DNA of 64,000 bases from Calothrix sp. PCC 7716 (GTDB taxonomy: Bacteria > Cyanobacteriota > Cyanobacteriia > Cyanobacteriales > Nostocaceae): the NCBI RefSeq assembly GCF_019977735.1, contig NZ_AP025018.1, positions 10,544,580-10,608,579 on the forward strand, given 5' to 3'. Shown piece by piece: positions 1 through 64,000 of this stretch. Position numbers and translations under genes: made by a program. Position 1 is the first letter of the stretch. Each line of letters begins with the position of its first letter. The notes under the pieces are model-generated. The model ran no database searches, was not told the DNA's origin, and saw only the letters and a program-made list of their open reading frames with translations.

Positions 1-2
1 TG

Positions 3-209
3 TGGTATGAGGTTGGTTCTCGGAATGAGAAAGCGGGTGAAAATGGGATTTCTCACCAGCTTGAACATTTACTGTTTAAGGCTACTACTGCACGTCCGGT
101 GCAATTTGGGCGCTTGTTTAGCGCTTTGGGTAGTCAGTTCAATGCGTTTACGAGTTATGACGAAACGGCTTATTTTGGTACGGTGCAGCGTGATAAGTTG
201 CAGTTTTAA
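3..209 (+). pseudogene. M16 zinc peptidase fragment (truncated)
   Basis: The frame is open from the window edge and ends at TAA 207-209. It encodes about 68 residues typical of the N-terminal catalytic part of M16 (pitrilysin/processing-peptidase) proteins: the inverted zinc motif HQLEH, then LLFKATTARP, QFGRLFSALGS and AFTSYDETAYFGTV. In intact family members this stretch continues for several hundred residues, with the third zinc ligand further on; here it stops abruptly after RDKLQF. The sequence beyond the stop matches nothing in M16 and is instead the antisense of the neighbouring minus-strand gene, so the end looks like a rearrangement junction. The true 5' end lies outside the window. 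Family call is confident; 'inactive remnant' is inference. Confidence 0.75.
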
Positions 210-920
210 AAGTTTCTTCTTGCGTTTATCTTTAATTTTTCTGACGGTAAGACCTATTCCTATTGTTAAAATTCCCCAAGGAATAGAAGATTCAGGTATA
301 CTGACTTTTCGATATTCTATTGGTGTGGCGACTAATAAATTACCTTGTGCATTAAATATTTGGTCTAGAGAATTAACACCATTATCAAATATAGTTACTT
401 TGGAAACTACTTTACCTCCTGTGCTTGTAGGGCAACCGTTAGGTGCATTGTTACCAACATAGCGTTGCGGTTCCCATAATAGTAAAAGATTACATGCAGC
501 AGTCGATATGTTATTGCTAGTTACTACTCTTTCTAATTCGGGTTTATCGCATAACCCATTCACAATACTTGGGTTAATGAAGGGGCGAACGTCAAGGTTT
601 ACTGCGGAATTTCCTTTGTTAAATGAGTAAAAACTGGTACGTTGAAAAGCCGAGCTTTTTTGTTCTAAAAAGATAGTCTCTGTGTCTTGATTGGGTAATG
701 CATCTGATAACCGGACTTTACAATTTGACATGGTAATGAGCGGAATATTGGGATTATTTGTGACTTGCTGAAAGTTATTAAATAAACCTGTAAACCAGCC
801 TGATACTTCTTTGACTTGCGTTTCTAATGGGGGTGGCGTGAGGACTGATGCTGTACTGGGTTGAGATAATATGAATGTTGATGCTAAAATACTAAGGCTA
901 CAGGCTTTTAACTTATTCAT
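69..920 (-). CDS. Secreted protein with PEP-CTERM-like C-terminal anchor, 3' end fused to foreign sequence
   Basis: 283 residues. An N-terminal signal peptide (hydrophobic core at about residues 8-24, ending STAS) is followed by a soluble domain I do not recognise. Around residues 210-236 is a sorting-signal-like segment: PESS, a hydrophobic stretch (WGILTIGIGLTV) and a basic cluster (KIKDKRKKK), as in cyanobacterial PEP-CTERM/PESS proteins exported and processed by exosortase. Such proteins normally end at the basic cluster. Here about 45 more residues follow, and they are the antisense translation of the M16 peptidase fragment, so the native stop was probably lost at a recombination junction near 205-212. 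Whether the tail blocks exosortase processing is unknown. Confidence 0.6.
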   Translation of the reverse strand: MNKLKACSLSILASTFILSQPSTASVLTPPPLETQVKEVSGWFTGLFNNFQQVTNNPNIPLITMSNCKVRLSDALPNQDTETIFLEQKSSAFQRTSFYSFNKGNSAVNLDVRPFINPSIVNGLCDKPELERVVTSNNISTAACNLLLLWEPQRYVGNNAPNGCPTSTGGKVVSKVTIFDNGVNSLDQIFNAQGNLLVATPIEYRKVSIPESSIPWGILTIGIGLTVRKIKDKRKKKLLKLQLITLHRTKISRFVITRKRIELTTQSAKQAPKLHRTCSSSLKQ

Positions 921-1072
921 ACTTGTCTATTTGTTTTTATTTAAATTGTTTATATATTACTGCATAGGCATTCTGACGGCAAAAGCTACCTAACTATTGG
1001 CGCCAGTCTTAAATCTCTTATACTCTTCTCTCTGTGGTTTGTGTGACTCTGTGGTAAAAAGAATGACTTGAA

Positions 1073-1101
1073 GGAACAGGCAGGGATGCCTGTTCCACAA
1101 G
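1073..1101. repeat. Dispersed palindromic repeat (GCAGGGATGCCTGTTCCACAAG type)
   Basis: GGAACAGGCA and TGCCTGTTCC form a hairpin around GGGA, followed by ACAAG. Near-identical copies occur around 42648 and 63592. It lies just downstream of the SGNH hydrolase gene and could act as a terminator hairpin, but there is no clear T-run. Confidence 0.7.
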
Positions 1102-1107
1102 AGGGGA

Positions 1108-2115
1108 TTATACTTTTTTGAGGCGTTTTGCTTTTGTTAGGGCGTTTTTGGTTTCGATTTGTTGGATGGCTGCTTGCCAGACTTCATAACCGTTGAGACT
1201 GAGGTGTAAGCCGTCGGTTGTTAGTTCTTGACGGAGGTTGCCTTGAAAGTCGGTGAACCAGTGGTGAATGTTTAGGTAGTTGGCGCCTTCTTGTTTGGCG
1301 ATAGTTGAGAGTTTTTGGTTGATATTACGGATGCGGGTGTTGGGTATTGTTGGTAGGCGTGTTGGTAAGATTGATTGAACGATGATTTGTGTCATCGGAT
1401 GTTCTTCGCGCAGACGGCGAATGATGCGGCGATGATTACGTAATATTGTTTCGTCTGTGGCGCCTCGACGCAGGTCGTTTATTCCTGCCATGAGGTAAAT
1501 TACGTCGGGTCTTGTTTTGGAGAAGGCTGATATTCTTTTTAATACGCCTGCTGAGGTGTCTCCAGAAATTCCTTGATTTAACCATAGTTTCCCTGAAGGT
1601 AGTTTGTCTTTAGGGAACCACATGCTTAAGGAGTCTCCGACTAATACGCTAAGACGATTATCTCCTTGACCATCTGACATTGCGCGCGCTTCTAAGGCTA
1701 GTAGTCCTTTCCAGTCTTCGTAAGATAGCTGACTTTTTCTACCATCGGGCTGCTGGGTTGATCTTACTGATGCTAGTCGAGTATAAATTGTGCCAAGCCT
1801 TAAGGCTGCTAATCGTTGGTAATATAGTTGACTTCCAGATAATGGTCTAGTGGCGCTGGGCTGCGTAATTCTACTAGGCGCCACTGAATTACTTGGGTTA
1901 CTAACTGGGTTACTAAATTCAGGTGCGGAATTTTCGGGAGTTGCAAGTGGTGGTAATTGGTTTTGGGTGGCGTGGGACTGCTGCGACTGCGAACCAACGT
2001 TGATGTCTATAGGTAATGGTGCATCTTGTTGGGCAATTGACAACTGAGGTAAAGCTGATGTGGGCACTGCCAATCCTGTCAACACTCCCGCTGCTAACAG
2101 ATATACATCCTTCAT
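1108..2115 (-). CDS. SGNH/GDSL-family hydrolase (lipase/esterase-like), secreted
   Basis: 335 residues. A hydrophobic N-terminus (about 1-22) looks like a signal peptide or anchor, followed by a low-complexity Pro/Ser/Asn/Gln linker to about residue 95. The catalytic domain has all four SGNH blocks in order: GDS at 160-162 (nucleophile Ser), NQG at 180-182 (block II Gly), GIND at 211-214 (block III Asn) and DGLH at 301-304 (Asp-His of the triad). The family hydrolyses ester or acyl groups on lipids or polysaccharides; the substrate cannot be told here. Related cyanobacterial proteins are often cell-wall or exopolysaccharide esterases. Transcribed alone, with dispersed repeats flanking it. Confidence 0.85.
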   Translation of the reverse strand: MKDVYLLAAGVLTGLAVPTSALPQLSIAQQDAPLPIDINVGSQSQQSHATQNQLPPLATPENSAPEFSNPVSNPSNSVAPSRITQPSATRPLSGSQLYYQRLAALRLGTIYTRLASVRSTQQPDGRKSQLSYEDWKGLLALEARAMSDGQGDNRLSVLVGDSLSMWFPKDKLPSGKLWLNQGISGDTSAGVLKRISAFSKTRPDVIYLMAGINDLRRGATDETILRNHRRIIRRLREEHPMTQIIVQSILPTRLPTIPNTRIRNINQKLSTIAKQEGANYLNIHHWFTDFQGNLRQELTTDGLHLSLNGYEVWQAAIQQIETKNALTKAKRLKKV

Positions 2116-2258
2116 CGCTTTATCTCCCCTCTTAAATAATGAATATATTCCCTAATCTCAGCCTATAGCGACTGATTTCAGGAAATTTCTTTGAATACTA
2201 ATTTATTATTTTTATTTACACCGCCTCCAAATGTAAAGCCAGCTGCATGTGATACTTT

Positions 2259-2741
2259 TCACAAACTCTTTAAAAAAGCCTTGTTAGCTTGAATTGTTTG
2301 TGTGATTTTTAGCCAAGCTTCAGCGGATAATGCGGACTTTATCAAGATTAACATCTTCCACCACTCAAGCAAATACTCAGAGCTATTACTTTGCTGTATT
2401 TGATCGATGTAATAATTTTGCCACCAATCTGGGGCATATTTACTGTTCCAACGCTTTTTCCAACGACGGCGCCAACGCCAAAAAACCTGAGAAAAGTTTG
2501 CCCCAGCAACAGGTGGGGGAGGAAAATCGGCGTAACTGATAAATCTACTGAGATTAGCACCATGAACGTAAGCTACGTAGCAATAACAGTCAATTCGCTT
2601 TATTTCCTCAATTTGAATGTTGAACATCATCGCGATAGCTTCCTCTGTCACAAATCGTGCTAACGGATGTATAAAAGGAGACTTATAGGCAATTTTGGAT
2701 ACACGAATTGAGGGTGCTGCGACCCTGATTGTTGTTACCAT
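2259..2741 (-). CDS. Hypothetical protein, Trp/Tyr-rich
   Basis: 160 residues; I do not recognise a family. It has no signal peptide or clear membrane span. The middle is basic and rich in Trp and Arg (VFWRWRRRWKKRW at about residues 86-98), followed by an aromatic segment (WWQNYYIDQI) and a C-terminal helix-like region. No catalytic motif is visible. The ATG is the first in the frame. It stands alone between the SGNH hydrolase and the methyltransferase, all on the minus strand with gaps over 140 bp, so it need not be cotranscribed with either. Confidence 0.5.
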   Translation of the reverse strand: MVTTIRVAAPSIRVSKIAYKSPFIHPLARFVTEEAIAMMFNIQIEEIKRIDCYCYVAYVHGANLSRFISYADFPPPPVAGANFSQVFWRWRRRWKKRWNSKYAPDWWQNYYIDQIQQSNSSEYLLEWWKMLILIKSALSAEAWLKITQTIQANKAFLKSL

Positions 2742-2947
2742 AGGTATATGAGTCCCTTTGACAAGGGATGTGCTTGATTGAATATTTATAGCTACGAGTG
2801 AGATTACCGACGCATATAAATGTTGTCGGCAACCTGACTAGCTTGGAAAAAGGCTATTTATCTATAAATTGATAGTACATCTATCTTACCTTATAAATTC
2901 CGAAAAAATCATAAAAATTAGTATAAATATTCTATTAAAATTTTAAA

Positions 2948-3907
2948 TTAATCATCGAAACGATACTGGCTGCCTTTTACATAGTCTTCATTCAGTTCAA
3001 AACTAAGCCATTGGCGCCGTAGTGTTTCGGCGACAAAGCCTGTAGTGTTGGAGCCTGCAAAGGGGTCTAGCACGATGTCGCCTTCCGAGGTGAGGAATTT
3101 GATAAAAAATTCTGCGAATCCTGACGGGTAGCGTGCCGGGTGTGGTTTAATATCGGCTTGTTTACAGCGTTTTAAATATGGAGTGTTAGATTCGGTGTTG
3201 GCAAATTCGAGTAAATTCGGTGGAATGGCGCCTTCATTATCTTTTTGAAATTTGGTTGAAATATCATGACCACTGGGACGTAGTTTGGCTTTGTACCCAT
3301 TTTTGAGTAAGTTTTTCATACTCTCGCTGTATGGTTTGAGAACTTTACGATTATCTGCTCGTGGGTTGGGGGTTTTTGAGAGCCACCAGACAACATTTAC
3401 TGAGTCTTTAACGCGAATGCGCCGGACATTGACCCACTCGGCTGGTGTTGGCAAGCGTGCTGGGTTGTAATGAAAGAATTCTTGTGCTAAATAGAACCCG
3501 ACTTCTCTACACAGTTTTACTAATAGTTCGTATTGATAAATACTGCGTATTGGGTTTCCTGGAAGATAGGCGCCGCCTAAATCTAATACAAAAGAGCCGT
3601 TTTCAGCTAAAACGCGCTTAAATTCGTGGGCAAAGGGTAAGAACCATTCTATGTATTTTTCCGCACTTTCATTTCCATATTCTTTCTTACGTGTTAATGG
3701 AAAAGGAGGTGAAGTTAAAATTAAATTTATACTGTCATTTTGTATTGATTGAATTAAATTCAAGCTGTCACCCAGGTACATGGCGCCGTATGTTCGGGTG
3801 TAATATGAATTTAGTTGAAGTGTAAGATGCGATGCTGTAAAGTATGTGTCCAATCTGATTTCACTTATTGCGTCTGCAAATCGGAATATAACGCATAAGT
3901 CAACCAA
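2948..3907 (-). CDS. Orphan DNA methyltransferase, beta-class, probably N4-cytosine
   Basis: 319 residues. Motif IV (TSPPF, about residues 66-70) precedes the AdoMet-binding motif I (DPFAGSNTTG, about 282-291), the beta-class order. SPPF/SPPY at motif IV favours exocyclic amino methylation, typically m4C. The stretch between, including NPARLPTPAEWVNVRRIRVK and PSGHDISTKFQ, resembles the conserved solitary m4C methyltransferases of cyanobacteria (DmtB/M.Ssp6803II-type, known for GGCC). No restriction endonuclease lies beside it. Translation may begin later than the first ATG, since conserved similarity starts near residue 34. It is a candidate for the enzyme behind the window's GGCGCC enrichment or GGCC scarcity; target specificity cannot be read from sequence by eye. 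Confidence 0.85.
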   Translation of the reverse strand: MVDLCVIFRFADAISEIRLDTYFTASHLTLQLNSYYTRTYGAMYLGDSLNLIQSIQNDSINLILTSPPFPLTRKKEYGNESAEKYIEWFLPFAHEFKRVLAENGSFVLDLGGAYLPGNPIRSIYQYELLVKLCREVGFYLAQEFFHYNPARLPTPAEWVNVRRIRVKDSVNVVWWLSKTPNPRADNRKVLKPYSESMKNLLKNGYKAKLRPSGHDISTKFQKDNEGAIPPNLLEFANTESNTPYLKRCKQADIKPHPARYPSGFAEFFIKFLTSEGDIVLDPFAGSNTTGFVAETLRRQWLSFELNEDYVKGSQYRFDD

Positions 3908-3954
3908 AATACAATATGTTTGTGCTATTTGTAATACTAGTCAAGCCTCTTGTC

Positions 3955-4012
3955 GTGTTGAACATACATCTGTCATGTTGAACATACATCTGTCATGTTG
4001 AACGTAGTGAAA
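3955..4012. repeat. Tandem direct repeat, unit about 20 bp
   Basis: The unit CTGTCATGTTGAACATACAT is repeated, with a final copy diverging to TGTTGAACGTAGTGAAACATC. The variant GTCATGCTGAACGTAGAGAA recurs near 32012, so this belongs to a dispersed family. It lies upstream of the methyltransferase gene that reads away from it; no promoter role is evident. Confidence 0.6.
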
Positions 4013-4081
4013 CATCTTTGTAAGTTTGAAGATTAATAAGATTCTACGCTACGCTCAGAATGACAATTGTGTACAAGACAA

Positions 4082-4777
4082 TTATATACCTGTTAGTACT
4101 TGGGATAGCTCTTTGGAAAGGTCTACGTTTGATTCTTCTTGTTTGGTAAATAAAACTCCAGCTAGGAAGTAGTAGTCACCTGAATAAAATGCTGTTTTTT
4201 TGCTACGCATTTCTTCAATGTGGTTTTTGACTTTTGGTTCTGAACTGTAGTAGCCAAATTCGATAGGTAATACAGTAAATTTGTTAACTGAGTAACCGTT
4301 GGCTTTTGCTTGTTCTATGGTGCTGATGGGATTAGAATAGCTAGATACTAGTACTAAAACGTTTTCGTATCCTAATGTTAGCAGCTTGTTTGTAATGGCG
4401 GCGCCGTCGGTTCCACCAAAAAGTAATGGCATATAGATGTCTTCGTCTGGTGCGGGTAGATAAGGAGGGTTAGAGACGAGACATTCAGATTGACTTTGAT
4501 TTGATTCAAACAGGCTAGAGTTATCTATTATATATTTGTCGGTTAGGCTATATTCGTCAATAGTTAAATTCGCTGCTTTCCATGCATCGGTATTTAACTC
4601 AAATCCATGTATTAAACCTGCAAATTTATTCCGTAGTAAAGAGCAAATTACAGGACTACCATCACCTGAACCAAATTCAACTATATATTTAAAGTTTTGA
4701 CGGTTTCTTAAAACGAAGTTCTCTAAACAGTTGGAGTAAAAGTTAGATTCTTCTGGGCAGTAAAAAATATCTTTCAT
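4082..4777 (-). CDS. Class I SAM-dependent methyltransferase (HemK/PrmC-like fold, NPPY motif)
   Basis: 231 residues. Motif I is VEFGSGDGSP (about 33-42) and the catalytic motif IV is SNPPYLP (about 101-107), followed by LLFGGTDGAA. NPPY is typical of enzymes that methylate exocyclic or amide nitrogens: PrmC on release-factor Gln, or N6-adenine methyltransferases of DNA, rRNA and tRNA. The N-terminal PrmC helical domain is missing, so it is not a canonical PrmC. Substrate unknown. It begins ATG with no close upstream gene on the same strand. A short run of STRR-like GTTAGAAGTTAGAA follows its start at 4787-4808. Confidence 0.7.
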   Translation of the reverse strand: MKDIFYCPEESNFYSNCLENFVLRNRQNFKYIVEFGSGDGSPVICSLLRNKFAGLIHGFELNTDAWKAANLTIDEYSLTDKYIIDNSSLFESNQSQSECLVSNPPYLPAPDEDIYMPLLFGGTDGAAITNKLLTLGYENVLVLVSSYSNPISTIEQAKANGYSVNKFTVLPIEFGYYSSEPKVKNHIEEMRSKKTAFYSGDYYFLAGVLFTKQEESNVDLSKELSQVLTGI

Positions 4778-4815
4778 GATGTTAGGGGTTGGGAGTTAGA
4801 AGTTAGAAATGTGGA

Positions 4816-4845
4816 AACGTAGGGTGGGCACTGCCCACCTTACTA
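4816..4845. repeat. Dispersed palindrome GTAGGGTGGGCACTGCCCACCTTAC
   Basis: GGTGGGCA and TGCCCACC pair around a 1-2 nt centre. Sister copies lie at about 6387, 15879, 31912 and 57195, with a variant at 13999. The copy abuts the stop codon of the following minus-strand gene and could serve as its transcript end. Confidence 0.75.
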
Positions 4846-5949
4846 AAGGGTTTCAGCTTGGCGGATTGATTTGACGACTGATAAAGCAGCGCGGTCGCCC
4901 ATTAATTTTTCTTGGTCATATCCAAGTAGTAGTTCCCATGCGTTGTTGGGATAAAGTTCTGCTAGGGGTAATGCCACATCGTCGAGCATCCATTGACCGT
5001 GACGTTCGTCTTCACGAATGTGGAGTTCCCAGTAACCCATTGCTGCATCTGACAAATTAAGTCTTTGTGCTGCGGTTAAATAATTACGATATGCGCTGGG
5101 ACCTGCTACCTCGAAGTACGTTAAGGCGCCTGAATAACGAAGGTAATAACGTTTGCGTTCTGTAGTTAAAAAATTATGATTTGCACATGCTAAAACTTCC
5201 CAAGGAACCAAGTCGAAGTAAGCTTCTGGCTCGGTATTCAAATCAAATTCATTAAGCATAGCCGCAAAAAATGTTGAGTGTTTACGGTTGAAGCGACCAT
5301 TACCGTATTCTTCAAGCAATACTTTCACTAATGTACATTGAATGGGGTTTGCTGTGCCGCCAAGAATGCGTGATAAACGACTACCTTCGACTAATCCATC
5401 AAATGAGCCTATAGCAAGTAAATGTTTATATCCTTCAACGCTCATTTCCTCACGAATGTAACGACTTCCTTCAGAAATTTCTGGATTTAAATCATAAGCT
5501 ACGCGGTCAATTAATGCTTGCTTGACATCAACTTTTTGTAATGACTCAACATCTATTTGTGCTAACTCCCATTTTTGCCAAGCTGTCTCTATGCTATTGC
5601 GAACTTGCTGCAAGTACAAAGAGCGTTCGTTTTCGTAATTTTGTAAATCATCGTACCAAAAAAGATACAAACGATTTATTCTGTAAAGAATTCGCTGAAG
5701 GAAGCGATGTGCTTGATAGTCTTGGGCGCCATCATATGCGGCTGTTAACGCTGTAGCTAAAGCGAACTCGAATTCTTTCGCAATGTCAGGGTTTATATTT
5801 AACTGCTTGTCTAAATTTTCAACAGCCAGTAACTGCACAAACTGCTTTTCGGCAATGTCGTAGTTGTCACTGGGCGCGGTATTCTCTTGTAAATATCGGT
5901 TTTTTCCCTCGGAGTCAATGCGAGGTAGCTCAATTGAAATACTTTGCAT
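4843..5949 (-). CDS. Haem-oxygenase-like diiron (iron-containing redox enzyme) family protein
   Basis: 368 residues, soluble. The second half has the signature spacing of the HDO/TENA-like all-helical 'iron-containing redox enzyme' family: EEYGNG followed by NRKHS (about 212-223), then TYFEVAGPSA (about 278-287), then the helix WELHIREDERHGQWM (about 307-321) with His, Asp and His ligand candidates. Known members oxidise or fragment fatty acids, amino acids or N-hydroxylated substrates with a non-haem diiron centre. The N-terminal about 150 residues are extra and not recognised. No biosynthetic partners sit beside it, so the substrate is open. Expressed alone, with the stop codon against a dispersed palindrome. 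Confidence 0.65.
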   Translation of the reverse strand: MQSISIELPRIDSEGKNRYLQENTAPSDNYDIAEKQFVQLLAVENLDKQLNINPDIAKEFEFALATALTAAYDGAQDYQAHRFLQRILYRINRLYLFWYDDLQNYENERSLYLQQVRNSIETAWQKWELAQIDVESLQKVDVKQALIDRVAYDLNPEISEGSRYIREEMSVEGYKHLLAIGSFDGLVEGSRLSRILGGTANPIQCTLVKVLLEEYGNGRFNRKHSTFFAAMLNEFDLNTEPEAYFDLVPWEVLACANHNFLTTERKRYYLRYSGALTYFEVAGPSAYRNYLTAAQRLNLSDAAMGYWELHIREDERHGQWMLDDVALPLAELYPNNAWELLLGYDQEKLMGDRAALSVVKSIRQAETL

Positions 5950-6314
5950 GAAATTAGTGGTGCTTTATAGAAGCTGTAAAATTTATTCCCTTAACACTAA
6001 TTACATTTTCATTTTGTAGCGCTAATTACCTCTCACCTTCGCCATAAATACCACTAAGACTAAAGTATGATAAGAAACAAATAAAGTGTAACTATTGTAA
6101 CAGTTTTTCTTTGTTATACAGACGCAATAAATCGCGTCCGTACTGTTTGTATGTAATATTTTTTACATTATTCTGTTTTCTAAATATCTATAACTAATAC
6201 AAATTTATCGTTTACTTAAAACATTAAATAATATTTGATACTTCGTTAATTATGGTCAGGCTAAAGTAATAGAGCAATTGTTTTACTACTTTAACTTTAC
6301 TGAGGTTTTATTAT

Positions 6315-6501
6315 TGTAGGTTGGGTGGAGGAACGGAACCCAACATAGAAGATTACAGGTAGTGGTTCGTGTCAAAAGTTTTGGGTTGTTGGTAGTAAGG
6401 TGGGCATTGCCCACCATACAATTGTACGCTTATCCTACACCCCAGAATTAATGACACGAACCAGTAGTTGGGTTCCGCATTTGCGCTCCACCCAACCTAC
6501 A
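6315..6501. repeat. 187-bp nested palindromic element
   Basis: Outer arms TGTAGGTTGGGTGGAG (6315-6330) and CTCCACCCAACCTACA (6486-6501) are exact inverted copies. Inside them GGAACCCAAC pairs with GTTGGGTTCC, further in TGGTTCGTGTC (6363-6373) pairs with GACACGAACCA (6453-6463), and near the middle is the common palindrome GGTGGGCATTGCCCACC. This is a composite, MITE-like structure in the 547-bp gap between genes; no coding is seen in the gap. Its right arm supplies the TAG stop of the adjacent PLP-enzyme gene. Confidence 0.75.
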
Positions 6502-7747
6502 AATGCGATGGGCCGACGGCTTCGATGGCTGCTTCTAGGGCGATGGAGATGTGTGTCCAGTGTGTGCCGCCTTGGCAATATACTATGTAGGGTTCGCGTA
6601 GTGGTCCGTCGGCGGAGAATTCTAGGGTGCTACCTTCGATGAATGTTCCTCCTGCCATGACTACTTGACTCTCGTAACCAGGCATTTGGTCGGGGATGGG
6701 GTCGAGGTAGGAACCGATGGGTGAGTTTTGCTGGATGGCTTTACAAAAGGCGATTAGTTTTTTGGCTGAACCTAGTTTAATTGCTTGAATTACGTCGCGA
6801 CGCGGCGCCATTGGGGCTGGGTTGACAGGATAGCCTAGTCTGTCAAATACGTAACCAGTAAGGTGAGTACCTTTCATTGCTTCTCCCACCATTTGCGGCG
6901 CCAAGAATAATCCTTGAAACAGCAATCTTAGCTGGTCAAAGGTGGCGCCTCCTTCACTGCCAATACCTGGTGCTGTGAGACGACATGCTGCCATTTCTAC
7001 TAAGTCGGCACGTCCTACTACATAACCCCCAGCGGTGACTATGGTACCACCTGGGTTTTTAATTAAAGAGCCTGCCATTAAGTCAGCGCCAACGTGCGTT
7101 GGTTCTTGTGTTTCGATAAATTCGCCATAGCAGTTGTCAACAAAACAAACTGTGTTGGGGTTTTGTTGTTTGACGATAGTAACTATTTTCCCGATTTCTT
7201 CAACTGATAAACTTGGGCGCCAAGAATAACCGCAGGAACGCTGGATAAGAACAAGGCGAGTGTTTTGTTTTATACCTTGGCTCAAAGCAGACCAATCAAT
7301 CGTCCCTTCAGATGTTAGATCCAATTGACGATAAGTTATGCCAAACTCTATAAGGGAGCCTTGAGAGCTACCCCGTAAACCAATGACTTCTTCTAAAGTG
7401 TCATAAGGGGCGCCTGCTACGGCTAGCATTTCATCACCAGGACGAAGCACACCAAATAAGGCGCAAGCGATAGCATGAGTTCCCGAAACAAACTGTACCC
7501 GCACTGCAGCTTTTTCGGCACCCATGACTGTAGCAAAGACTTTATCTAAAGTTTCGCGCCCAATATCATCGTGTCCGTATCCTGTGACACCTGCGAAATG
7601 GTGCGACCCAACACTATAATCGCGAAAAGAATTTAGCACTCTAGTCAGATTTTGCTTGACTGTTGCGTCAATTCCAGAAAAAATCTGTAACAGTGCCTGT
7701 TCTGCGTCCCGCAGCTGCTCCAAGCTGTTCATTAGTCCCTCATTCAC
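6497..7747 (-). CDS. PLP-dependent methionine gamma-lyase family protein ('aluminum resistance' family)
   Basis: 416 residues, full length for the Met_gamma_lyase (PF06838-type) family of fold-type I PLP enzymes. Seen: VSGTHAIACALFG (about 88-100), a cofactor-binding Asp region FVDNCYGEF (about 202-210) and the Schiff-base lysine in GSLIKNPGG (Lys230). The C-terminal half has GIGSEGGATFDQLR and GGTFIEGSTLEFSADGPLR. Relatives were named for aluminium tolerance, but the chemistry is probably C-S lyase-like on Cys/Met-type substrates; that is family knowledge, not shown here. It is divergent from desC. The stop TAG falls inside the outer arm of a palindromic element, so the C-terminus may have been set by that insertion. 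Confidence 0.85.
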   Translation of the reverse strand: MNEGLMNSLEQLRDAEQALLQIFSGIDATVKQNLTRVLNSFRDYSVGSHHFAGVTGYGHDDIGRETLDKVFATVMGAEKAAVRVQFVSGTHAIACALFGVLRPGDEMLAVAGAPYDTLEEVIGLRGSSQGSLIEFGITYRQLDLTSEGTIDWSALSQGIKQNTRLVLIQRSCGYSWRPSLSVEEIGKIVTIVKQQNPNTVCFVDNCYGEFIETQEPTHVGADLMAGSLIKNPGGTIVTAGGYVVGRADLVEMAACRLTAPGIGSEGGATFDQLRLLFQGLFLAPQMVGEAMKGTHLTGYVFDRLGYPVNPAPMAPRRDVIQAIKLGSAKKLIAFCKAIQQNSPIGSYLDPIPDQMPGYESQVVMAGGTFIEGSTLEFSADGPLREPYIVYCQGGTHWTHISIALEAAIEAVGPSHL

Positions 7748-7873
7748 AATAAATTTACTACTTTGTGGATTTCTAGCGCATGGCAGATAAAAGCTATGCT
7801 CAATATAGGTACGCTGAACCTGAACAACAAATTACTTTGTTTTCGCGCTTTTAAATCCCATTTAGGATACTGC

Positions 7874-8707: not shown

Positions 8708-8728
8708 AATAATCTGCTTGCAATCTAT

Positions 8729-8752
8729 CCCCCGCTTTATCAACGGGGGTTT
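8729..8752 (+). terminator. Hairpin downstream of desC
   Basis: CCCCCG (8729-8734) and CGGGGG (8744-8749) enclose a 9-nt loop and are followed by TTT. A strong GC stem at the correct distance from the desC stop suggests a Rho-independent terminator, though the T-run is short. Confidence 0.6.
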
Positions 8753-8828
8753 AAAATGTCGCGAAAATTGCGATTTTATTGATATAATCCAAATCGCGAC
8801 CTTAACAAAACTTTACTCAAGATGTTAC

Positions 8829-8932: not shown

Positions 8933-8965
8933 TGATTGTGGGGAGTTTTTCATAATTTAGTATTC

Positions 8966-44909: not shown

Positions 44910-44910
44910 A

Positions 44911-54592: not shown

Positions 54593-56965
54593 ATGAGTGG
54601 AAAAATCCTTAACAGCCGCTACAAGTTAGACCGTCGATTAGGTGGTGGTGGGTTAGGTGATACATATTTAGCGTTTGACTTGTGGAAAGAAGGTGATAAT
54701 CGCTGTGTGGTCAAACAACTCAAACCCGAAATCGTTAATGCTACAACATTAAGATTGTTTGAGAAAGAAGCAGAAGCATTATCTAAACTAGGTAGTCATT
54801 CTCAAATTCCAACACTTTTGGCACATTTTCAGCAAGATGACCAATTTTACCTTGTGCAAGAGTTTATAGAAGGGCATGACCTGACGGAAGAAATCAAATT
54901 GGGAGAATGTTGGCAAGAAACTGCTGTAATCAAACTTTTACAAGATATTTTAGAAGTGCTATATTTTGTACATCAAAATCACGTTATTCATCGTGATATC
55001 AAGCCTGGTAATATAATGCGGTGCCCAGATGGTAAAATAGTACTAATTGATTTTGGTGGTGTTAAACAAGTTAAAAACAACCCTGCTTCCACACAATCAA
55101 GTGTAGTGGTTGGAACACCGGGATATATGCCCTTTGAACAAATTTATAATAATGCCCAATTGTGCAGTGATATTTATGCTGTGGGAATGGTAGCAATTGC
55201 AGCGCTGACTGGTGAAAATCCTGTTGATGTGAGTATAGACCCAGACACTTTACAACCCGTATGGCGCCAGCAGGCACAAGTTCGTGATGAGTTTGCTAGT
55301 ATTATAAATAAAATGGTGCAGTTTCATCACGTTAACCGCTACCAATCTGTATGCGAATTATCACTTGCTCTTAATAATTTAGTCGATACAGCATCTGAAT
55401 GGTGCGAACAAGGAAAATGTTTATTAAAACAAAAACACTATGCAGAGGCAATAGCAGCATTTGAACAAGCGCTTTTAGCTAGACAGAATTACCCAGAAGC
55501 TTTCAAAGGAAAAGGTTGGGCTTTGTTTAGTTTAAGACAAGAGAATGAAGCACTGGCTCTATTTGACCGAGTTCTTGAAACCCAACCTGATGATTATGAA
55601 GCATTAATCGGTCGCGGTTGGGCACTAAATAGGTTGGAGAAGTATGATGAAGCGTTAGTGGCTTGTGAGCGTGCGGTTGAAATTCAACCAAATGCAGATA
55701 AAGCAGTTACAGGTCGTGCTTGGTCGTTAGGTGGTTTAGGTAAACATGAAGAAGCGCTTGTAGTTTATGACCAGGCAATAGAAATTAATCGAGATAACGT
55801 ATATGCTTGGACAGGTCGTGCTTGGGCATTAAACGAGTTAGGAAGATATCAGGATGCACTTGCGTCTTGCGAACAAGCAATAAAGTTAGATGCTAATTAC
55901 TCAGATCCTTGGTGCAATCGTGGTTGGTCGCTATACTACTTAGGTTGCCATGAAGATGCACTTGCATCTTTTGACCGTGGGATTGAAATCGATCCAAATG
56001 ATGCTTTAAGTGTGAATTTTCGTGGATGGTTGTTGTACTTATTAGCCCGCTATGATGAAGCTCTTGTATACTATGAACAAGCATTAAAATTAAAACCAGA
56101 TGCTGCGTATATTTGGAAAAATCGGGGACTCTCACTGTATAAATTAAATGATTATAAAGCTGCTAATGCTTCTTTTCAAAAAGCAGTAAGCTATAGCGGT
56201 AATGTTCCAGAAATGTGGTTTTCCTGGGGCACAGTGTTATTAGAACAGGCAAATTACCAGCGCGCGATTATATGCTATGATACTGCTATTGAACTTAAAA
56301 AAAATTATTATCAAGCATGGACATATCGTGGTATTGCCTTAGAATGGTTACATAAATATGAAGACGCTGTTGCATCTTACAAGCAAGCAATTAAAATGAA
56401 AGAAGATTATTTTGATGCTTGGTTATCTATTGGTGTCGTGCAATGTAGATTGCTACTATACGAACAATCAGAGGCATCATTAAACCGTGCGATTCAACTC
56501 AATCAAGACTCACATATTGCTTGGTCGCATCAATGTATTACATTACAAAACTTAGGGAAATACAAAGAAGCACTTTCATCTATCGATAAAGCGATAAAAA
56601 TTAAGCATGATGATTGTTACTATTGGACAGTTCGAGGAACAACGCTAAATAATTTAAAAAGATATGAAGATGCAATTTATTCTTTGAACAAAGCTCTCGC
56701 AATTGAACCCAATTATAATCTAGCACTTCAAGCAATTAATGATGTTAAAACTCTTTCACGTAGAAGTACATTTTCAGAAAGATTGAGAGATGCTCATAAG
56801 ATATTTTTGAATAAGTATAAAGTTATCTGGATAGGAATAAGCGTTATTATTGTTATCATGTTTTGGAACACTATTATTAATAATTCGTTCAGCTTATTTA
56901 TTATTAGCGTAATTATCTTATTTTTAATTATAGATTTCTCAATCGAGATTATTTTTCCAAGATAA
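54593..56965 (+). CDS. Ser/Thr protein kinase with 13 TPR units and C-terminal membrane helices (gene 2)
   Basis: 790 residues. Kinase domain: glycine loop LGGGGLGDTYLA (about 16-27), Lys41 in VVKQLKPE, HRDIKPGN (Asp135), DFGG (153-156) and GYMPFEQ. Thirteen consecutive 34-residue TPRs follow (about residues 272-712), first DTASEWCEQGKCLLKQKHYA, last TTLNNLKRYEDAIYSLNKAL. Two hydrophobic helices (about 738-752 and 760-785) anchor the C-terminus. TPRs likely capture substrates or partners for the membrane-bound kinase. It lies 108 bp downstream of gene 1, in the same direction, with related non-coding sequence before the start (GATGTCAAAATGTATAATTA here, GATGTAAAAATGTATAATTA before gene 3). 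Confidence 0.88.
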   Translation: MSGKILNSRYKLDRRLGGGGLGDTYLAFDLWKEGDNRCVVKQLKPEIVNATTLRLFEKEAEALSKLGSHSQIPTLLAHFQQDDQFYLVQEFIEGHDLTEEIKLGECWQETAVIKLLQDILEVLYFVHQNHVIHRDIKPGNIMRCPDGKIVLIDFGGVKQVKNNPASTQSSVVVGTPGYMPFEQIYNNAQLCSDIYAVGMVAIAALTGENPVDVSIDPDTLQPVWRQQAQVRDEFASIINKMVQFHHVNRYQSVCELSLALNNLVDTASEWCEQGKCLLKQKHYAEAIAAFEQALLARQNYPEAFKGKGWALFSLRQENEALALFDRVLETQPDDYEALIGRGWALNRLEKYDEALVACERAVEIQPNADKAVTGRAWSLGGLGKHEEALVVYDQAIEINRDNVYAWTGRAWALNELGRYQDALASCEQAIKLDANYSDPWCNRGWSLYYLGCHEDALASFDRGIEIDPNDALSVNFRGWLLYLLARYDEALVYYEQALKLKPDAAYIWKNRGLSLYKLNDYKAANASFQKAVSYSGNVPEMWFSWGTVLLEQANYQRAIICYDTAIELKKNYYQAWTYRGIALEWLHKYEDAVASYKQAIKMKEDYFDAWLSIGVVQCRLLLYEQSEASLNRAIQLNQDSHIAWSHQCITLQNLGKYKEALSSIDKAIKIKHDDCYYWTVRGTTLNNLKRYEDAIYSLNKALAIEPNYNLALQAINDVKTLSRRSTFSERLRDAHKIFLNKYKVIWIGISVIIVIMFWNTIINNSFSLFIISVIILFLIIDFSIEIIFPR

Positions 56966-57001
56966 ATTATTATTGTAATATATGTTTAATGGTTCAGATT
57001 T

Positions 57002-57137
57002 CAATACTGCTCGGTTAAGCGATTTTTTCGGAATCAATCCCCCCTAACCCCCCTTAGTAAGGGGGGAAAATAGAGGCTTTTAGCCCCCCTTATCAAGGGG
57101 GGTTGGGGGGATTTTTATTCTTAACCGAGCAGTATTG
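57002..57137. mobile_element. 136-bp MITE with 18-bp terminal inverted repeats
   Basis: Termini CAATACTGCTCGGTTAAG (57002-57019) and its exact reverse complement (57120-57137). The 10-bp sequence GTTCAGATTT is duplicated at 56992-57001 and 57138-57147. Inside are complementary runs (CCCCCCTTAGTAAGGGGGG and CCCCCCTTATCAAGGGGGG) that would fold into strong hairpins, and no coding frame. A 10-bp target duplication fits mobilisation by an IS4-type transposase. Confidence 0.9.
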
Positions 57138-57194
57138 GTTCAGATTTGAGGCGCCAGTTTTGAAAAGACCTAAGACCTTGATATGCTAGGAATA

Positions 57195-57216
57195 TGGTGG
57201 GCAGTGCCCACCTTAC
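57195..57216. repeat. Dispersed palindrome GGTGGGCAGTGCCCACC
   Basis: Same family as the copies at 4816, 15879 and 31912, here between the MITE and the kinase relic. Confidence 0.75.
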
Positions 57217-57250
57217 GGGGTGTTCAAAATTGAAACAGGAATCCTATATT

Positions 57251-57301
57251 CAGAAAGCAGAGAATAAATTGCGAAAACCTTCATTTCTACGTTGGTTATA
57301 G
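57251..57301 (+). pseudogene. Relic of a kinase-TPR gene 3' end
   Basis: Seventeen codons read QKAENKLRKPSFLRWL then TAG, matching the last residues of gene 1 (KKAENKLRKPSFLRWL). The differences in PSFLRWL are all synonymous (TTC/TTT, TTG/CTA, TTG/TTA), so the lost copy was once under selection. What precedes it is unrelated repeat sequence. Confidence 0.75.
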
Positions 57302-57423
57302 TCAAATTGCTCGCTTTACCAATATTTATAATAAAAAAACATAAAAAAACACTTCTTAACGATGTAAAAATGTATAATTAAATTTCAGTCAAACCACTGT
57401 TAACACTCGACTAACTATCGCTT

Positions 57424-59622
57424 ATGAGTGGAAAAATTCTCAACAGTCGCTACGAATTAGACCAAAAACTAGGCGGTGGTGGGTTAGGCGATACATATTT
57501 GGCTTTTGACCTTTGGAAAGAAGATGATAACCGCTGTGTGGTTAAACAACTTAGACCTGGAATTGTTAATGCTACAACATTACGGTTGTTTGAGAAAGAA
57601 GCCGAAGCATTGTCAAAACTAGGAAGTCACGACCAAATTCCAACTCTTTGGGCACATTTCCAGCAAGATAACCAATTTTACCTGGTGCAAGAGTTTATAG
57701 AAGGACATGACTTGACTCAGGAAATCAAATTAGGGGAGTGTTGGCAAGAAACTGATGTAATCAAACTTTTGCAAGATATTTTAGAAGTACTAGATTTTGT
57801 ACACCAAAATAACGTTATCCATCGCGATATCAAGCCTGGTAACATTATGCGGCGCCAAGATGGCAAAATCGTACTGATTGATTTTGGCGGTGTTAAACAA
57901 GTTAAAAATAATCCAACCTCTCGGCAATCAAGTGTAGTGATTGGTACACCTGGGTATATGCCCTACGAGCAAATATATAATAATGCTCAATTCTGTAGTG
58001 ATATTTATGCTGTGGGTATGCTGGCAATAGGAGCGCTAATAGGTGAAAATCCTGTTGATATTCCCACTGATTCAAAAACATTACAGCCTATTTGGCGTAA
58101 GAATACACAGGTAAGTAATGAATTTGCTGATGTTTTAGATAAAATGGTGCAATTTCATTATGTAGAGCGATACGAGTCAGTTTCTGAACTACAAAATATA
58201 CTAAAAAGTTTTCTATTTACAGAGGTTGATTGGTGCCAAAAAGGAGAATCGCTAGTTAAAACGAAGAACTATAATGAGGCAATTATCGCATTTAAAGAAG
58301 CACTGAGCATACAGCAAGATTATCCAGACGCAATAAACGGAATTAGCTGGTCTTTATACTACTTAAGACAATATAATAAAGCACTGGCTGGTTTTAAAAA
58401 AGTATTAAAAATATATCCAAATAATTATCAGGCTTTAACTGGGTGTAGTTGGGTTTTTATTAAATTGGGCAATTACGATGAGGCATTAGCATCGAGCGAG
58501 CGCGCGATTGAAATTCAATCTGATTACGAAAAAGCATGGGTAAGTCGTGGTGGAACACTTATTTATTTAGGTTATGCAACAGAAGCGCTTACAGTCTTTG
58601 AGCAAGTACTTGGGATGAACCCAGATAATGTAGATGCTTGGGCAAGTCATGCCTGGGCATTAATTGAACTAGGAAGGAACGAGGAAGCATTAGCATCTTG
58701 CGAACAAGCAATTCAGCGTGATACAGATTTTGCTGATGCATGGAGTAATAGAGGTGTTGCGCTACTTAAATTGGGAAATTACAATGAGGCTATTGCGTGT
58801 TGTCAGCGAGCAATCAAGATCAATGCAGATGAAGTTATATATTTTGTAAATCTTGCTTGGGTACTTTACAGTTGTGGTCGGCACGATGAAGCACTGGCAA
58901 ATTACGAACTAGAATTGAAAATAAAACCCAACGATTCTAAGCTTTGGACTTATCAAGGAATTTTGTTATGTGAGCTAAAGAAATATCAACAAGCTGATTT
59001 ATCATTAAAAACAGCTATTAAACTTGATTCCAATTCAGCTTTAGCTCATCTATATTCTGGAACGGTGCTATTTTTATCAAAATCTGTAGCATTTGAACAA
59101 CTACTCGAATTAGTGGAACAAGCAATTAGCATCAAGCAAGGTTTATCAAACGAACATTTAGTACTTGCTCAGTTATATAAAGGTATATGCTTAAGCAAAC
59201 TAGGCAAGGATGAAGATGCTTTTGCAACATTAAATAAACTAACTAATGTGAGAGCAAGCGATGGACTAATTTACTTAGTTTTGTACACTTGTGGAGAAGT
59301 ACTAAATAAACTAAGAAAATATGAAGAAGCGATTATTTATTTAGATAAATCACTAACAATTCAACAAAATTGTGAATTCGCTATTAAAGCGCGGAAAAGA
59401 GCTAAGAAAAATTTATGGAAACCTTTATTTTTGAGACGTTGGGAAAGTATATTAATGAAATATATATCCTTATATTCCGTATCTGACTTAATAATTTTAT
59501 CGCCGATTGCCTTTATTTTCTTATACTTCTCTCCAATCATTATAGCTATACCTATGCTTGTCATATTGTCTATTTCTATAACTTTAGTGAAATGGTCTAG
59601 TCCCATTTCACGAAAACCTTGA
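57424..59622 (+). CDS. Ser/Thr protein kinase with TPR units and C-terminal membrane segment (gene 3)
   Basis: 732 residues. The kinase domain is nearly identical to that of gene 2 (LGGGGLGDTYLA, VVKQLRPG, HRDIKPGN, DFGG and GYMPYEQ), whereas the TPR part has diverged strongly, with about ten to twelve units (VDWCQKGESLVKTKNYNEAI onward). A segment KNLWKPLFLRRW echoes the RKPSFLRWL ending of gene 1, then one long hydrophobic region (about 683-720) anchors the protein. Conserved catalytic domain with variable TPRs suggests the same signalling chemistry directed at different partners. Third of three tandem kinase genes. Confidence 0.88.
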   Translation: MSGKILNSRYELDQKLGGGGLGDTYLAFDLWKEDDNRCVVKQLRPGIVNATTLRLFEKEAEALSKLGSHDQIPTLWAHFQQDNQFYLVQEFIEGHDLTQEIKLGECWQETDVIKLLQDILEVLDFVHQNNVIHRDIKPGNIMRRQDGKIVLIDFGGVKQVKNNPTSRQSSVVIGTPGYMPYEQIYNNAQFCSDIYAVGMLAIGALIGENPVDIPTDSKTLQPIWRKNTQVSNEFADVLDKMVQFHYVERYESVSELQNILKSFLFTEVDWCQKGESLVKTKNYNEAIIAFKEALSIQQDYPDAINGISWSLYYLRQYNKALAGFKKVLKIYPNNYQALTGCSWVFIKLGNYDEALASSERAIEIQSDYEKAWVSRGGTLIYLGYATEALTVFEQVLGMNPDNVDAWASHAWALIELGRNEEALASCEQAIQRDTDFADAWSNRGVALLKLGNYNEAIACCQRAIKINADEVIYFVNLAWVLYSCGRHDEALANYELELKIKPNDSKLWTYQGILLCELKKYQQADLSLKTAIKLDSNSALAHLYSGTVLFLSKSVAFEQLLELVEQAISIKQGLSNEHLVLAQLYKGICLSKLGKDEDAFATLNKLTNVRASDGLIYLVLYTCGEVLNKLRKYEEAIIYLDKSLTIQQNCEFAIKARKRAKKNLWKPLFLRRWESILMKYISLYSVSDLIILSPIAFIFLYFSPIIIAIPMLVILSISITLVKWSSPISRKP

Positions 59623-62072: not shown

Positions 62073-62405
62073 TGTCAGAGTGTGAGGGTAGGGGAACTGA
62101 AATATAGCCGAAAAACACTCAGTCATTTGTGCGAAAAGCTGCAAATGACAAGGCAGTTTAAATCACAGCCATCAAATAAAGCACTAAGGAACATTCTACT
62201 CGCGTAACGATAAAATATACTTTTTTTTCAGAATGATTATTCGGGATAGGCGTATACAGAGAAATTGAGTAGATACAAGTACTAACTTTTACCATTAGTA
62301 ACTTTATCTACTCAACGCATGTGTAAACTAGAAGGAAAAATCTAAAACTTTTGATGCACTTTAAAATTAAGCTTTATGTAGTTAATATATGATTGGTTAC
62401 GATAA

Positions 62406-63173
62406 TTAACCAATATTTACTTTTTTACGTTGACGTGCAGAGATTATACCAGCAATAGCCAAGGCGCCTAAGCTGATAACAGTGCCAGGTTCAGGAACAC
62501 TTACACGCATTGATACACCATCGCCAGTTTTAGGAAATAATTTGCTGTCATGATTGCCAAGCTGAATTACAAACGAGCTAACATCGTGGATAGTGATTGT
62601 CTGTCTGTTGCTATCGGCGCCAGCAACAGCGTTAATTGTAGTTGCCTTACCGTTAACTTCCAAAATGCTTGTACCTTTGTCTTCGACATCAAACAAATCA
62701 AAGGTTACGGAACCAATATTTTTACCAAGAAAATCAAACTTGAATCTACCAACTTCTAATTGACCCTTTTCAAAAGTGCTTGTTAAACCAAGCATTGCTG
62801 AGGGACGAATCCAGAGTTGATTTAGATTTGGGTTTGTGCCTGCATCTTGCTTATTAAAAATAATACCGAAACCGTAATCGTTTTTAGTGCTGCGGTCATC
62901 AACAAATAAGCGGCTTTCAACAAATTTAGGACCTTTGTTATCAAAATCATATTTTAAGCTGGTTACTGTATAACCAAAAGGTAATCCATTCGTAGCAGCA
63001 GCAGTGGTATCAATACACTTAGTAGCATCGAGACAACCAAGATTTGTTGTTTGAATTTCACCTTCTCTATTAGGTACTAAGGAAGCTGCATTTGCTGTGG
63101 AAGCAAAAGTAAGAACACTTAAGCCAAGAGTTGTTGCGGCGAAGATTTTTGCGAGTAACATAGCTTTTTGCAT
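62406..63173 (-). CDS. LEVG-type PEP-CTERM secreted protein
   Basis: 255 residues from ATG 63173 (MQKAMLLAKIF); an earlier in-frame start adds 20 unconserved residues. A signal peptide (about 1-29) ends in ANA. The domain contains GQLEVGRFKFDFLG and VTFDLFDVEDKGTSILEVNG, the motif pattern of LEVG-family proteins. The C-terminus is a canonical PEP-CTERM signal: VPEPG, a hydrophobic helix (VISLGALAIAGII) and SARQRKK, for exosortase/EpsH handling and surface or exopolysaccharide attachment. Two Cys in LGCLDATKC may form a disulfide. No exosortase gene is in the window. Confidence 0.82.
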   Translation of the reverse strand: MQKAMLLAKIFAATTLGLSVLTFASTANAASLVPNREGEIQTTNLGCLDATKCIDTTAAATNGLPFGYTVTSLKYDFDNKGPKFVESRLFVDDRSTKNDYGFGIIFNKQDAGTNPNLNQLWIRPSAMLGLTSTFEKGQLEVGRFKFDFLGKNIGSVTFDLFDVEDKGTSILEVNGKATTINAVAGADSNRQTITIHDVSSFVIQLGNHDSKLFPKTGDGVSMRVSVPEPGTVISLGALAIAGIISARQRKKVNIG

Positions 63174-63233
63174 GGTTGTATGTACGTGTTTTCTCTGGTT
63201 GATATTTGCTATGTTATGGGTGCCTAAGTGCAA

Positions 63234-63680
63234 TCGTCATCCTTTTTCTACAAGGTTTATATCAATTTGATACTAGTAATAATATTTGGAAAATTACTCA
63301 AATAACATGTGTTATTTGATAACAGTATATAAATATATAAGGTTACAAAAGTAAATACGCTAGTAAATATTTTTACTAGCGAAATAAAACTTTTTATACT
63401 ATATATTTAAAGTTTTTTAGAAGCAAGTTGCTCTGTTGATGAAGAGTAATTAATATTACTTCGTTGTTTTCAACATATCATTCTTGAAAAAGCTTGTAAA
63501 TGTGACACTTTTCAAAGTGGTTGAGTCGCGCACGAGTATTTACTGCTATGTATAGTATACGTGGGTAGTATTATTTTTTACTAAGAATAAAACAGGCAGG
63601 GATGCCTGTTCCACAAGATAAAGAAGTGCATTAGTTGAAGGCGCCTAGAAATACCTATAGATAGTGGTTCAGTAAGGATT
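63234..63680. other. 447-bp intergenic region before the exporter gene
   Basis: AT-rich. Contains the dispersed repeat ACAGGCAGGGATGCCTGTTC (63592-63611, then CACAAG), one GGCGCC, and presumably promoters for both flanking genes. No short precursor peptide was recognised here. Confidence 0.5.
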
Positions 63681-64000
63681 ATGTTGAAAATTCCGCAGTT
63701 AAAGTCAAAATACCAGCCTATTCGCCGTACTCCTACGTTGTTACAGATGGAAGCGGTAGAATGTGGCGCCGCTTCTTTGGGGATGATATTGGGATATTAT
63801 GGGCGAATTGTGCCGCTTGCTGAGTTGCGTACTGCTTGTGGGATATCTCGTGATGGTAGTAAGGCTTCTAATATTATTAATGCGGCAAAAAGTTATGATT
63901 TACAGGCGAAGGGTTTCAAAATTGATTTAGACTCTTTGAGACAGGTTGCTTGTCCTTATATAGTGTTTTGGAATTTTAATCACTTTTTAGTTGTCGAAGG
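63681..64000 (+). CDS. NHLM/NHLP-type bacteriocin export ABC transporter, N-terminal C39 peptidase domain (partial)
   Basis: About 106 codons run off the window edge. The N-terminal C39 peptidase domain is clear: [20 protein letters not shown] with the catalytic Cys, [20 protein letters not shown], and [12 protein letters not shown] with the catalytic His. This arrangement matches peptidase/permease/ATPase exporters of the NHLP-leader RiPP family, which cut after a Gly-Gly of nitrile-hydratase-like leader peptides and export the core. TAAGGA lies just before the ATG. Precursor and modification genes, if any, should lie beyond the window. Confidence 0.82.

Follow-up and report, generated by a model that had tools for sequence, protein, structure and literature searches.

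GGCGCC as the alternate HIP of Calothrix sp. PCC 7716 and a clade trait of its genus

Word counts in the 64-kb window

The window, by which we mean the whole 64,000-nucleotide stretch of the Calothrix sp. PCC 7716 genome that was analysed, contains 101 copies of GGCGCC (1..64000; this and the other word features below are unstranded), located both within and between genes. Base composition predicts 2.9 copies and order-1 and order-2 Markov models predict 4.5 and 4.7, and 200 dinucleotide shuffles of the window yielded 4.5 +/- 2.2 copies with a maximum of 10. These counts bear out the first-pass annotation of this DNA, which had estimated about 100 sites against 3-4 expected, and the Markov-corrected count that it proposed left GGCGCC well above expectation at every order used. 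Even against the maximal-order model the observed count stands at z = 13.4; that model's expectation rises to 50.2 since almost every copy of the sub-words GGCGC (108) and GCGCC (107) falls within a GGCGCC. Predicted ORFs, which make up 80% of the window, hold 86 of the 101 sites, and 8-kb stretches contain between 8 and 17 sites each. Spacing in the window is approximately random rather than regular (CV 0.93), with the densest stretch holding six sites in 0.7 kb (42493..43195; starts at 42493, 42865, 42925, 42983, 43128, and 43190).

HIP1 (GCGATCGC), which the same annotation had not seen, was counted zero times in the window, as was CGATCG. GATC and GGCC, described there as present in about ten and fewer than ten copies and far below expectation, were indeed rare. 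We counted ten residual GATC (1760..58821; first start 1760, last start 58818) against 144.5 +/- 11.7 in dinucleotide shuffles, and seven residual GGCC (6511..48476; first start 6511, last start 48473) against 103.5 +/- 9.5.

Distribution over the genome, the genus and the family

The complete PCC 7716 genome carries 20,380 GGCGCC in 12,367,066 bp, or one per 607 bp. This density of 1,648 per Mb lies within the range of about 500-2,500 per Mb for a GC-rich palindrome serving as an alternate HIP, and across about 2.1 Mb of genus sequence the word reaches 18.6 times its order-1 expectation. HIP1 is depressed in the same genome, at 66 copies compared to 64 for a control word. GGCGCC is thus the alternate HIP of PCC 7716, as the first-pass annotation had proposed, and HIP1 is gone. 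The excess was found in all seven genomes of the genus (7,475-20,380 copies; one site per ~580-870 bp) and in none of the 185 other family genomes searched (at most 1,053 copies each). HIP1 numbered 31-163 copies in the seven genomes and more than 1,000 in 181 of the 185 others. The GGCGCC excess is therefore a clade trait of the genus and not a sporadic one.

The core finding is not new. In Elhai 2015 (PMC4390886), GGCGCC is described as an alternate HIP in Calothrix PCC 7103 and D253, with HIP1 and CGATCG lost and GATC depleted in PCC 7103, a GATC endonuclease gene present in that strain, and GRCGYC-type C5-methyltransferases held to read GRCGYC rather than GGCGCC alone. The paper also suggests that a second methylase copy is needed, calls the occurrence of alternate HIPs sporadic, and names as a gap in its own model which C is methylated. 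PCC 7103, which is among our seven genomes, belongs to the same GTDB genus as PCC 7716 and is 93% identical to it in aligned regions. Our findings agree with that report in the word, the lost and depleted words, the GATC endonuclease gene, and the type of methyltransferase, but extend to seven genomes and do not require a second methylase copy. Relative to that paper, the new elements are the clade-wide trait, the probably HindVP-derived orphan enzyme, the in-place conservation, the inner-C footprint, and the DpnII-type pair in 7/7 genomes. Also from PMC4390886, rCCGGy in Oscillatoria PCC 10802 and GCsGC in Cyanothece PCC 7822 similarly combine low HIP1 with another over-represented word matching a resident methyltransferase, but these are other words, each reported from one genome. 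Like HIP1, GGCGCC is a GC-rich palindrome occurring about once per kb and tied to resident methyltransferases; unlike HIP1, which goes with GATC and CGATCG enzymes, it goes with a GRCGYC-type C5-methyltransferase.

Candidate enzymes behind the word pattern

A C5-methyltransferase of the GRCGYC lineage (predicted specificity) is present in all seven genus genomes and is single-copy in G101 and G138; in G076, the copy at the fixed locus is divided between two contig ends. It has the C5-methyltransferase fold and motifs (PF00145, E 2e-64) and is 66-73% identical to the HindVP-endonuclease-paired methylases of family relatives, where a HindVP endonuclease or remnant adjoins the homologous methylase in 18 of 23 outgroup loci. 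The recognition region, with boundaries set by hand, is 75% identical to that of the HindVP-paired enzymes, and two fixed differences occur over the whole protein. A protein search that recovered 3/3 positive controls detected the HindVP endonuclease in 0/7 genus genomes; it repeated at protein level a search with the PF09519 profile (also 0/7), a weak negative given that 14 controls were silent. In contrast to HindVP-type systems, which pair a PF09519 endonuclease with a C5-methyltransferase, the genus thus has an orphan methylase, and its target is abundant rather than avoided. These sequence comparisons point to an orphan C5-methyltransferase originating from HindVP-type (GRCGYC) restriction systems as the most likely enzyme matching GGCGCC, and to GRCGYC rather than GGCGCC alone as its most likely target. 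The orphan lineage is insufficient for the trait, being also present, with neither the endonuclease nor the GGCGCC excess, in G045 and four g22 genomes.

Methylase families PF00145, PF01555, and PF02086 were searched. Another C5-methyltransferase group (cluster 1) was rejected as the GGCGCC enzyme because it is not specific to the trait, occurring in 7/7 genus genomes and, across the family, in 146 of 192. The PF01555 methyltransferase within the window is M.PvuII-like and so likelier a CAGCTG enzyme; the window ORF at 2259-2741 was dropped as a candidate PvuII endonuclease, since nothing in NCBIfam, Pfam, or the solved structures matched it.

The first-pass annotation had also proposed that two palindromic tetramers are avoided alongside the alternate HIP. 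This view stands for GATC, which occurs at 0.17 of expected in the genus versus 0.82 in 11 outgroup samples, but not for GGCC as a special trait (0.11 versus 0.12). GGCC depletion is family background unrelated to GGCGCC. The GATC methyltransferase that the annotation suggested looking for was found, in that a D12 methylase matching M.DpnII (2dpm) adjoins a 308-aa protein in all seven genus genomes, with this neighbour called as a DpnII endonuclease by Pfam in both of the two genomes scanned. GATC depletion is genus-specific and accompanies this DpnII-type gene pair in 7/7 genomes.

Conservation, mutation and maintenance of GGCGCC sites

In close genome pairs, every one of which includes PCC 7716 as common member, GGCGCC motif columns change at 0.26, 0.28, and 0.67 of codon-matched rates, compared to 0.82-1.24 for the flanks and 0.86-1.29 of the matched rate for 11 control words. 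Transversions and outer transitions within the motif are protected (0.21-0.37). These findings suggest that GGCGCC sites are held in place, with conservation confined to the six bases.

Within the motif, inner C-to-T is the leaky change relative to the others. With codon-matched controls, inner transitions occurred at 0.78, compared to 0.21 and 0.24 for the motif's remaining transitions. This contrast was reduced against G115 and absent against G101, where the inner value was 0.63 and the other two 0.54 and 0.70. An absolute excess of inner C-to-T loss (1.6-3.6 times with trinucleotide-only controls) was discarded, as codon-matched controls leave only the within-motif contrast, with inner change at 0.34-1.50 over 12 comparisons and not above expectation. 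GGTGCC is the only enriched one-change word of GGCGCC. GACGCC had the highest inner C-to-T ratio among 131 NNCGNN words (19 vs 7.0), with the excess at GACGCC and GACGTC based on 10 and 5 unique sites, so that these unprotected words look hypermutable at the inner C, as expected for GR-m5C-GYC. The footprint suggests that GGCGCC sites may bear a DNA-methylation mark.

Several processes could keep such sites. A codon or amino-acid preference for Gly-Ala (GGC GCC) fits the phase of 324 of the 620 coding sites examined over 440 kb of PCC 7716, but it is refuted as the cause, with a likelihood we regard as negligible, by the non-coding density (1.25 per kb versus 1.79 in ORFs), the occurrence of the word in all three phases, flanks that change at about 1.0 of codon-matched rates, and the lack of excess in 185 family genomes. 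If T:G mismatches at methylated sites were corrected by Vsr-like very-short-patch repair, GGCGCC would be both kept and spread, and the strong GGTGCC/GGCGCC exchange (187 vs 16) would be explained. We rejected this process as very improbable, since Vsr (PF03852) was found in 0/7 genus genomes by a search positive in 5/14 controls, and protection extends to transversions and outer transitions beyond the reach of T:G repair. Conservation confined to six bases would suit any functional word, and uptake or recombination signals and chromosome structure have been ascribed to HIP1 (PMC6604393), but sites serving such purposes with only an incidental methylase seem improbable given the inner-C footprint at GGCGCC and GACGCC/GACGTC and the orphan GRCGYC-lineage methylase (predicted specificity) in 7/7 genomes, both of which link the word to methylation.

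Elhai's ratchet holds that G-m5C-directed mismatch repair fixes mutations creating methylated GC, converting GRCGYC-like words to GGCGCC without functional selection. It fits the methyltransferase link, the inner-C footprint, and the protection of all six bases, and one-change words do exchange with GGCGCC at raised rates (46 vs 4 for AGCGCC first-base transitions; 8 vs 2 for the GACGCC second base). Losses alone, however, would be expected to produce these raised exchanges, which are symmetric in time. Polarised gains, dropped as evidence, fell from 8 vs 1.8 without an outgroup to 2 vs 0.64 with one, too few to rest on and not clearly raised. Furthermore, G101 and G138 keep full density with a single methylase copy, contrary to the suggested second copy, and the trait is genus-wide, contrary to "sporadic". 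We consider the ratchet unlikely, if still plausible.

We favour, with a probability of roughly 60%, the reading that GGCGCC has taken the place of HIP1 in this genus, as a palindrome found throughout the genome that carries a cytosine mark and whose sites are kept in place. This reading draws on the abundance and clade distribution of the word, the lack of a HindVP partner, the six-base conservation, and the mutation footprint. In the history we infer, a DpnII-type restriction-modification pair on the genus stem would have purged GATC and thereby GCGATCGC as well, and a GRCGYC C5-methyltransferase lacking the HindVP-type endonuclease would have persisted as an orphan, presumably marking the inner C (GR-m5C-GYC). 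The unprotected words GACGTC, GACGCC, and GGCGTC would wear away as m5C deaminates, but GGCGCC would stay at about one site per 580-870 bp through conservation of the individual sites. Selection acting on marked sites is the likeliest cause of this conservation, and methyl-directed biased mismatch repair a less likely one. For HIP1 itself, maintenance by selection has been reported (Xu 2018, as cited in PMC6604393). More tentatively, and with less than even confidence, a stranded restriction-modification methyltransferase may have been domesticated on the genus stem, with ~20,000 G-m5C sites replacing HIP1 as the functional mark. After correction for m5C hypermutability, the selection holding each site would be of similar strength across the six bases, and the cell would then need a methylated GC roughly once per kilobase, regardless of which palindrome provides it.

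The seven genomes weigh against two premises of Elhai's model, the second methylase copy and sporadic occurrence, and the inner-C footprint offers a testable answer to its gap of which C is methylated. Since two genus members, Dulcicalothrix desertica PCC 7102 and Calothrix PCC 7103, have culture-collection numbers, the decisive methylome should be obtainable. To our knowledge, the function of HIP1 has long been an open question. A whole genus in which a different palindrome has supplanted HIP1 is a natural experiment separating the word from its role, and comparison of its seven genomes suggests that sites of the new word are retained where they stand.

GGCGCC and other short words in the genus and family

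The first-pass annotation had claimed that GGCGCC is abundant in the window while GATC and GGCC are nearly absent and HIP1 (GCGATCGC) is not seen. Our counts bore this out (GGCGCC, 101; GATC, 10; GGCC, 7; HIP1, 0), with 200 dinucleotide shuffles of the window giving expectations of 4.5 for GGCGCC, 144.5 for GATC, and 103.5 for GGCC. The excess of GGCGCC also withstood the proposed Markov correction, since a maximal-order model, whose expectation is as high as 50 because GGCGCC sub-words are almost confined to GGCGCC, still gave a z of 13. Mechanically called ORFs, occupying 80% of the window, contain 86 of the 101 sites, and the distances between sites vary roughly as for random placement (CV, 0.93). 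Also ranking among the commonest window 8-mers were ACTCAGCA (25 copies) and AGTTAGGA (18 copies), which are short tandem-type repeats. The complete genome (12.37 Mb, 10 contigs) contains 20,380 GGCGCC sites, and sampled parts of two smaller contigs carried 1.51 and 1.13 per kb.

We counted words in 192 genomes of the GTDB family, seven from the same genus and 185 others. The genus set includes Calothrix PCC 7103, Dulcicalothrix desertica PCC 7102, Calothrix NIES-4105, Calothrix HK-06, and two MAGs; identity in aligned regions was 93 to 95% among five members, approximately 87% for NIES-4105, and approximately 82% for the most distant member, the MAG G101. All seven genus genomes contained 7,475 to 20,380 GGCGCC sites, and the highest count among the 185 others was 1,053, in a genome with 1,270 copies of a control word. 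HIP1 mirrored this distribution, with 31 to 163 copies in the seven genus genomes and more than 1,000 in 181 of the 185 others, the remaining four being G082 (30), G022 (535), G154 (574), and G083 (990). G022 (genus g23, 10.7 Mb) contained just 326 GGCGCC sites and may use yet another alternate HIP. According to Elhai 2015 (PMC4390886), the alternate HIP of PCC 7103 is GGCGCC. Beyond that work, no report of GGCGCC as a HIP was found among the matches listed from open-licence literature, and neither Calothrix nor GGCGCC was found in the passages of PMC4752239 examined.

The search for a dam-like methyltransferase, also proposed at first pass, identified a D12 methylase in the PCC 7716 genome matching M.DpnII (2dpm, E 5.5e-51). 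This methylase adjoins a 308-aa protein in all seven genus genomes; of these proteins, two were scanned and both identified as DpnII endonucleases by PF04556 (E 1e-95 and 9e-93), and the other five belong to the same sequence cluster. The observed/expected ratio of GATC was 0.17 in the genus (0.10 to 0.37 in each of the seven genomes) versus 0.82 in 11 outgroup samples of approximately 20 kb taken around methylase genes, and that of CGATCG was 0.24 versus 12.2. For PCC 7103, Elhai 2015 reports GATC at 16% of expectation and a GATC endonuclease gene. GGCC ratios were 0.11 in the genus and 0.12 in the outgroup samples. TTCGAA, GCATGC, and CCGCGG, each with 0 window copies, were near zero in both sets of samples, a pattern suggesting that restriction targets are avoided across the family. 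CGCGCG was raised in genus samples (349 versus 55 expected in 780 kb) and showed no conservation beyond matched controls (ratio, 0.91).

Conservation of sites and the footprint at the inner C

Approximately 440 kb of the PCC 7716 genome was aligned, where possible, to the six relatives; this genome is common to all pairs, and the pairs are not independent. GGCGCC was intact at 251 of 320 aligned sites in NIES-4105 (78%, versus 46% for other 6-mers containing at least five G/C) and at 98 of 180 in G101 (54% versus 30%). The motif was symmetrised to three columns and compared with controls that shared trinucleotide and codon position; on this basis, observed/expected change in close pairs, those with the nearer genus members, was 0.26, 0.28, and 0.67 in the motif and 0.82 to 1.24 in twelve flanking columns. 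The motif ratios were 0.35, 0.44, and 0.45 against NIES-4105 and 0.49, 0.59, and 0.62 against G101, with flanking columns at 0.76 to 1.33 in these two deeper comparisons. Among 18 words tested, 11 controls at least two bases from GGCGCC changed at 0.86 to 1.29 of expectation, and the totals for seven one-change neighbours spanned 0.71 to 1.90, a spread predicted by their exchange with GGCGCC.

Transitions in close pairs were at 0.21 and 0.24 in the outer two columns and 0.78 at the inner C, with transversions at 0.35 to 0.37 in all three columns. This transition contrast was smaller against NIES-4105 (0.32, 0.39, and 0.50) and gone against G101 (0.54, 0.70, and 0.63). In absolute terms, inner change at GGCGCC was not above the matched rate (0.34 to 1.50 over 12 comparisons). 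GGTGCC was the sole enriched one-change word, and its T differed as C 11 times as often as in matched controls (187 versus 16). The highest inner C-to-T ratio of 131 NNCGNN words with enough data belonged to GACGCC/GGCGTC (19 versus 7.0 at 10 unique sites), and GACGTC, below the ranking cut-off, gave 7 versus 1.7 at 5 unique sites. The inner-C pattern fits methylation of GR-m5C-GYC, with words lacking protection eroding, which would partly account for the rarity of GACGTC, GACGCC, and GGCGTC. Dividing 0.78 by 2.7 to 4.2 gives 0.19 to 0.29, similar to other transitions, although this is small-count arithmetic and not a test. Site comparisons showed the deaminated state 172 times out of 2,226 for close pairs and 47 times out of 930 for the deeper two. 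It is thus no commoner in the deeper pairs, although words with at least two changes grow there and may hide some.

A candidate methylase and neighbouring modification genes

PF00145 searches returned 9 to 17 matches per genus genome, fragments counted, and clustering of fetched matches gave two groups common to all seven genomes. One of these two groups was rejected as the GGCGCC enzyme; 146 of the 192 family genomes have it, and it is therefore unspecific to the GGCGCC trait. The candidate is an orphan C5-methyltransferase of HindVP-type lineage (contig C1, 10950494-10951501, minus strand, in PCC 7716), with a member in each genus genome at 80 to 99% pairwise identity. In six of the seven it is intact and flanked by a RuBisCO-like mtnW-type gene on one side and a GHL10/SLH gene on the other; in G076, the copy at this locus is broken across two contig ends, and an intact member lies elsewhere. 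Homologues (E <= 1e-40) occur in 52 of the 185 non-genus genomes, and a HindVP endonuclease or remnant adjoins the homologue at 18 of 23 loci fetched from these 52 genomes; the one endonuclease scanned matched PF09519 (E 2e-154). HindVP targets GRCGYC. Protein searches found its endonuclease in none of the seven genus genomes, with three of three positive controls detected. Identity to seven HindVP-paired methylases was 75% in the recognition region (hand-set boundaries), 64% ahead of it, and 78% after it, with two fixed differences overall.

PCC 7103 contains two methylases of the orphan lineage, and Elhai 2015 assigns two PCC 7103 methylases to GrCGyC and describes its CGATCG methylase as broken. 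G101 and a second genus member, G138, have one copy only, with GGCGCC at 1.15 and 1.70 per kb (rounded genome sizes). The GGCGCC excess is absent from four g22 genomes and G045, though these have the orphan lineage without the endonuclease; orphan status alone is insufficient for the excess.

In three genomes, a 658-aa C5-methyltransferase and a 270- to 435-aa partner, for which no family match was found, adjoin the orphan-methylase locus (L159:4673-7964 in PCC 7103; also L160 and L165). PCC 7716 retains only a 178-aa partner remnant (L081:12126-12662), and the pair is perhaps a restriction-modification unit gained and then lost. The window encodes an N4/N6 methyltransferase of the M.PvuII kind (2948-3907, minus strand; 1boo, E 5e-106), a match that makes CAGCTG its probable target; CAGCTG occurs 3 times in the window versus 10.7 expected, and all seven genus genomes have a PF01555 match of like score and length.

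What keeps GGCGCC in place

We favour selection on the methylated site as what would keep GGCGCC in place. The main rival is the ratchet put forward in Elhai 2015, by which G-m5C-directed mismatch repair drives words to GGCGCC without selection for function. Protection of all six bases is predicted by the ratchet as it is by selection, and polarised gains were too few to decide between them. Vsr repair was rejected as the keeper, a PF03852 search having found Vsr in none of the seven genus genomes and in 5 of 14 controls; transversions are protected too. Selection for HIP1 is the topic of Xu et al. 2018, as cited in PMC6604393, which also places the methyl mark of Synechocystis CGATCG on the first C. 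HIP1 and GGCGCC both would then present a methylated GC, and by this analogy we infer that the two words may serve the same job.
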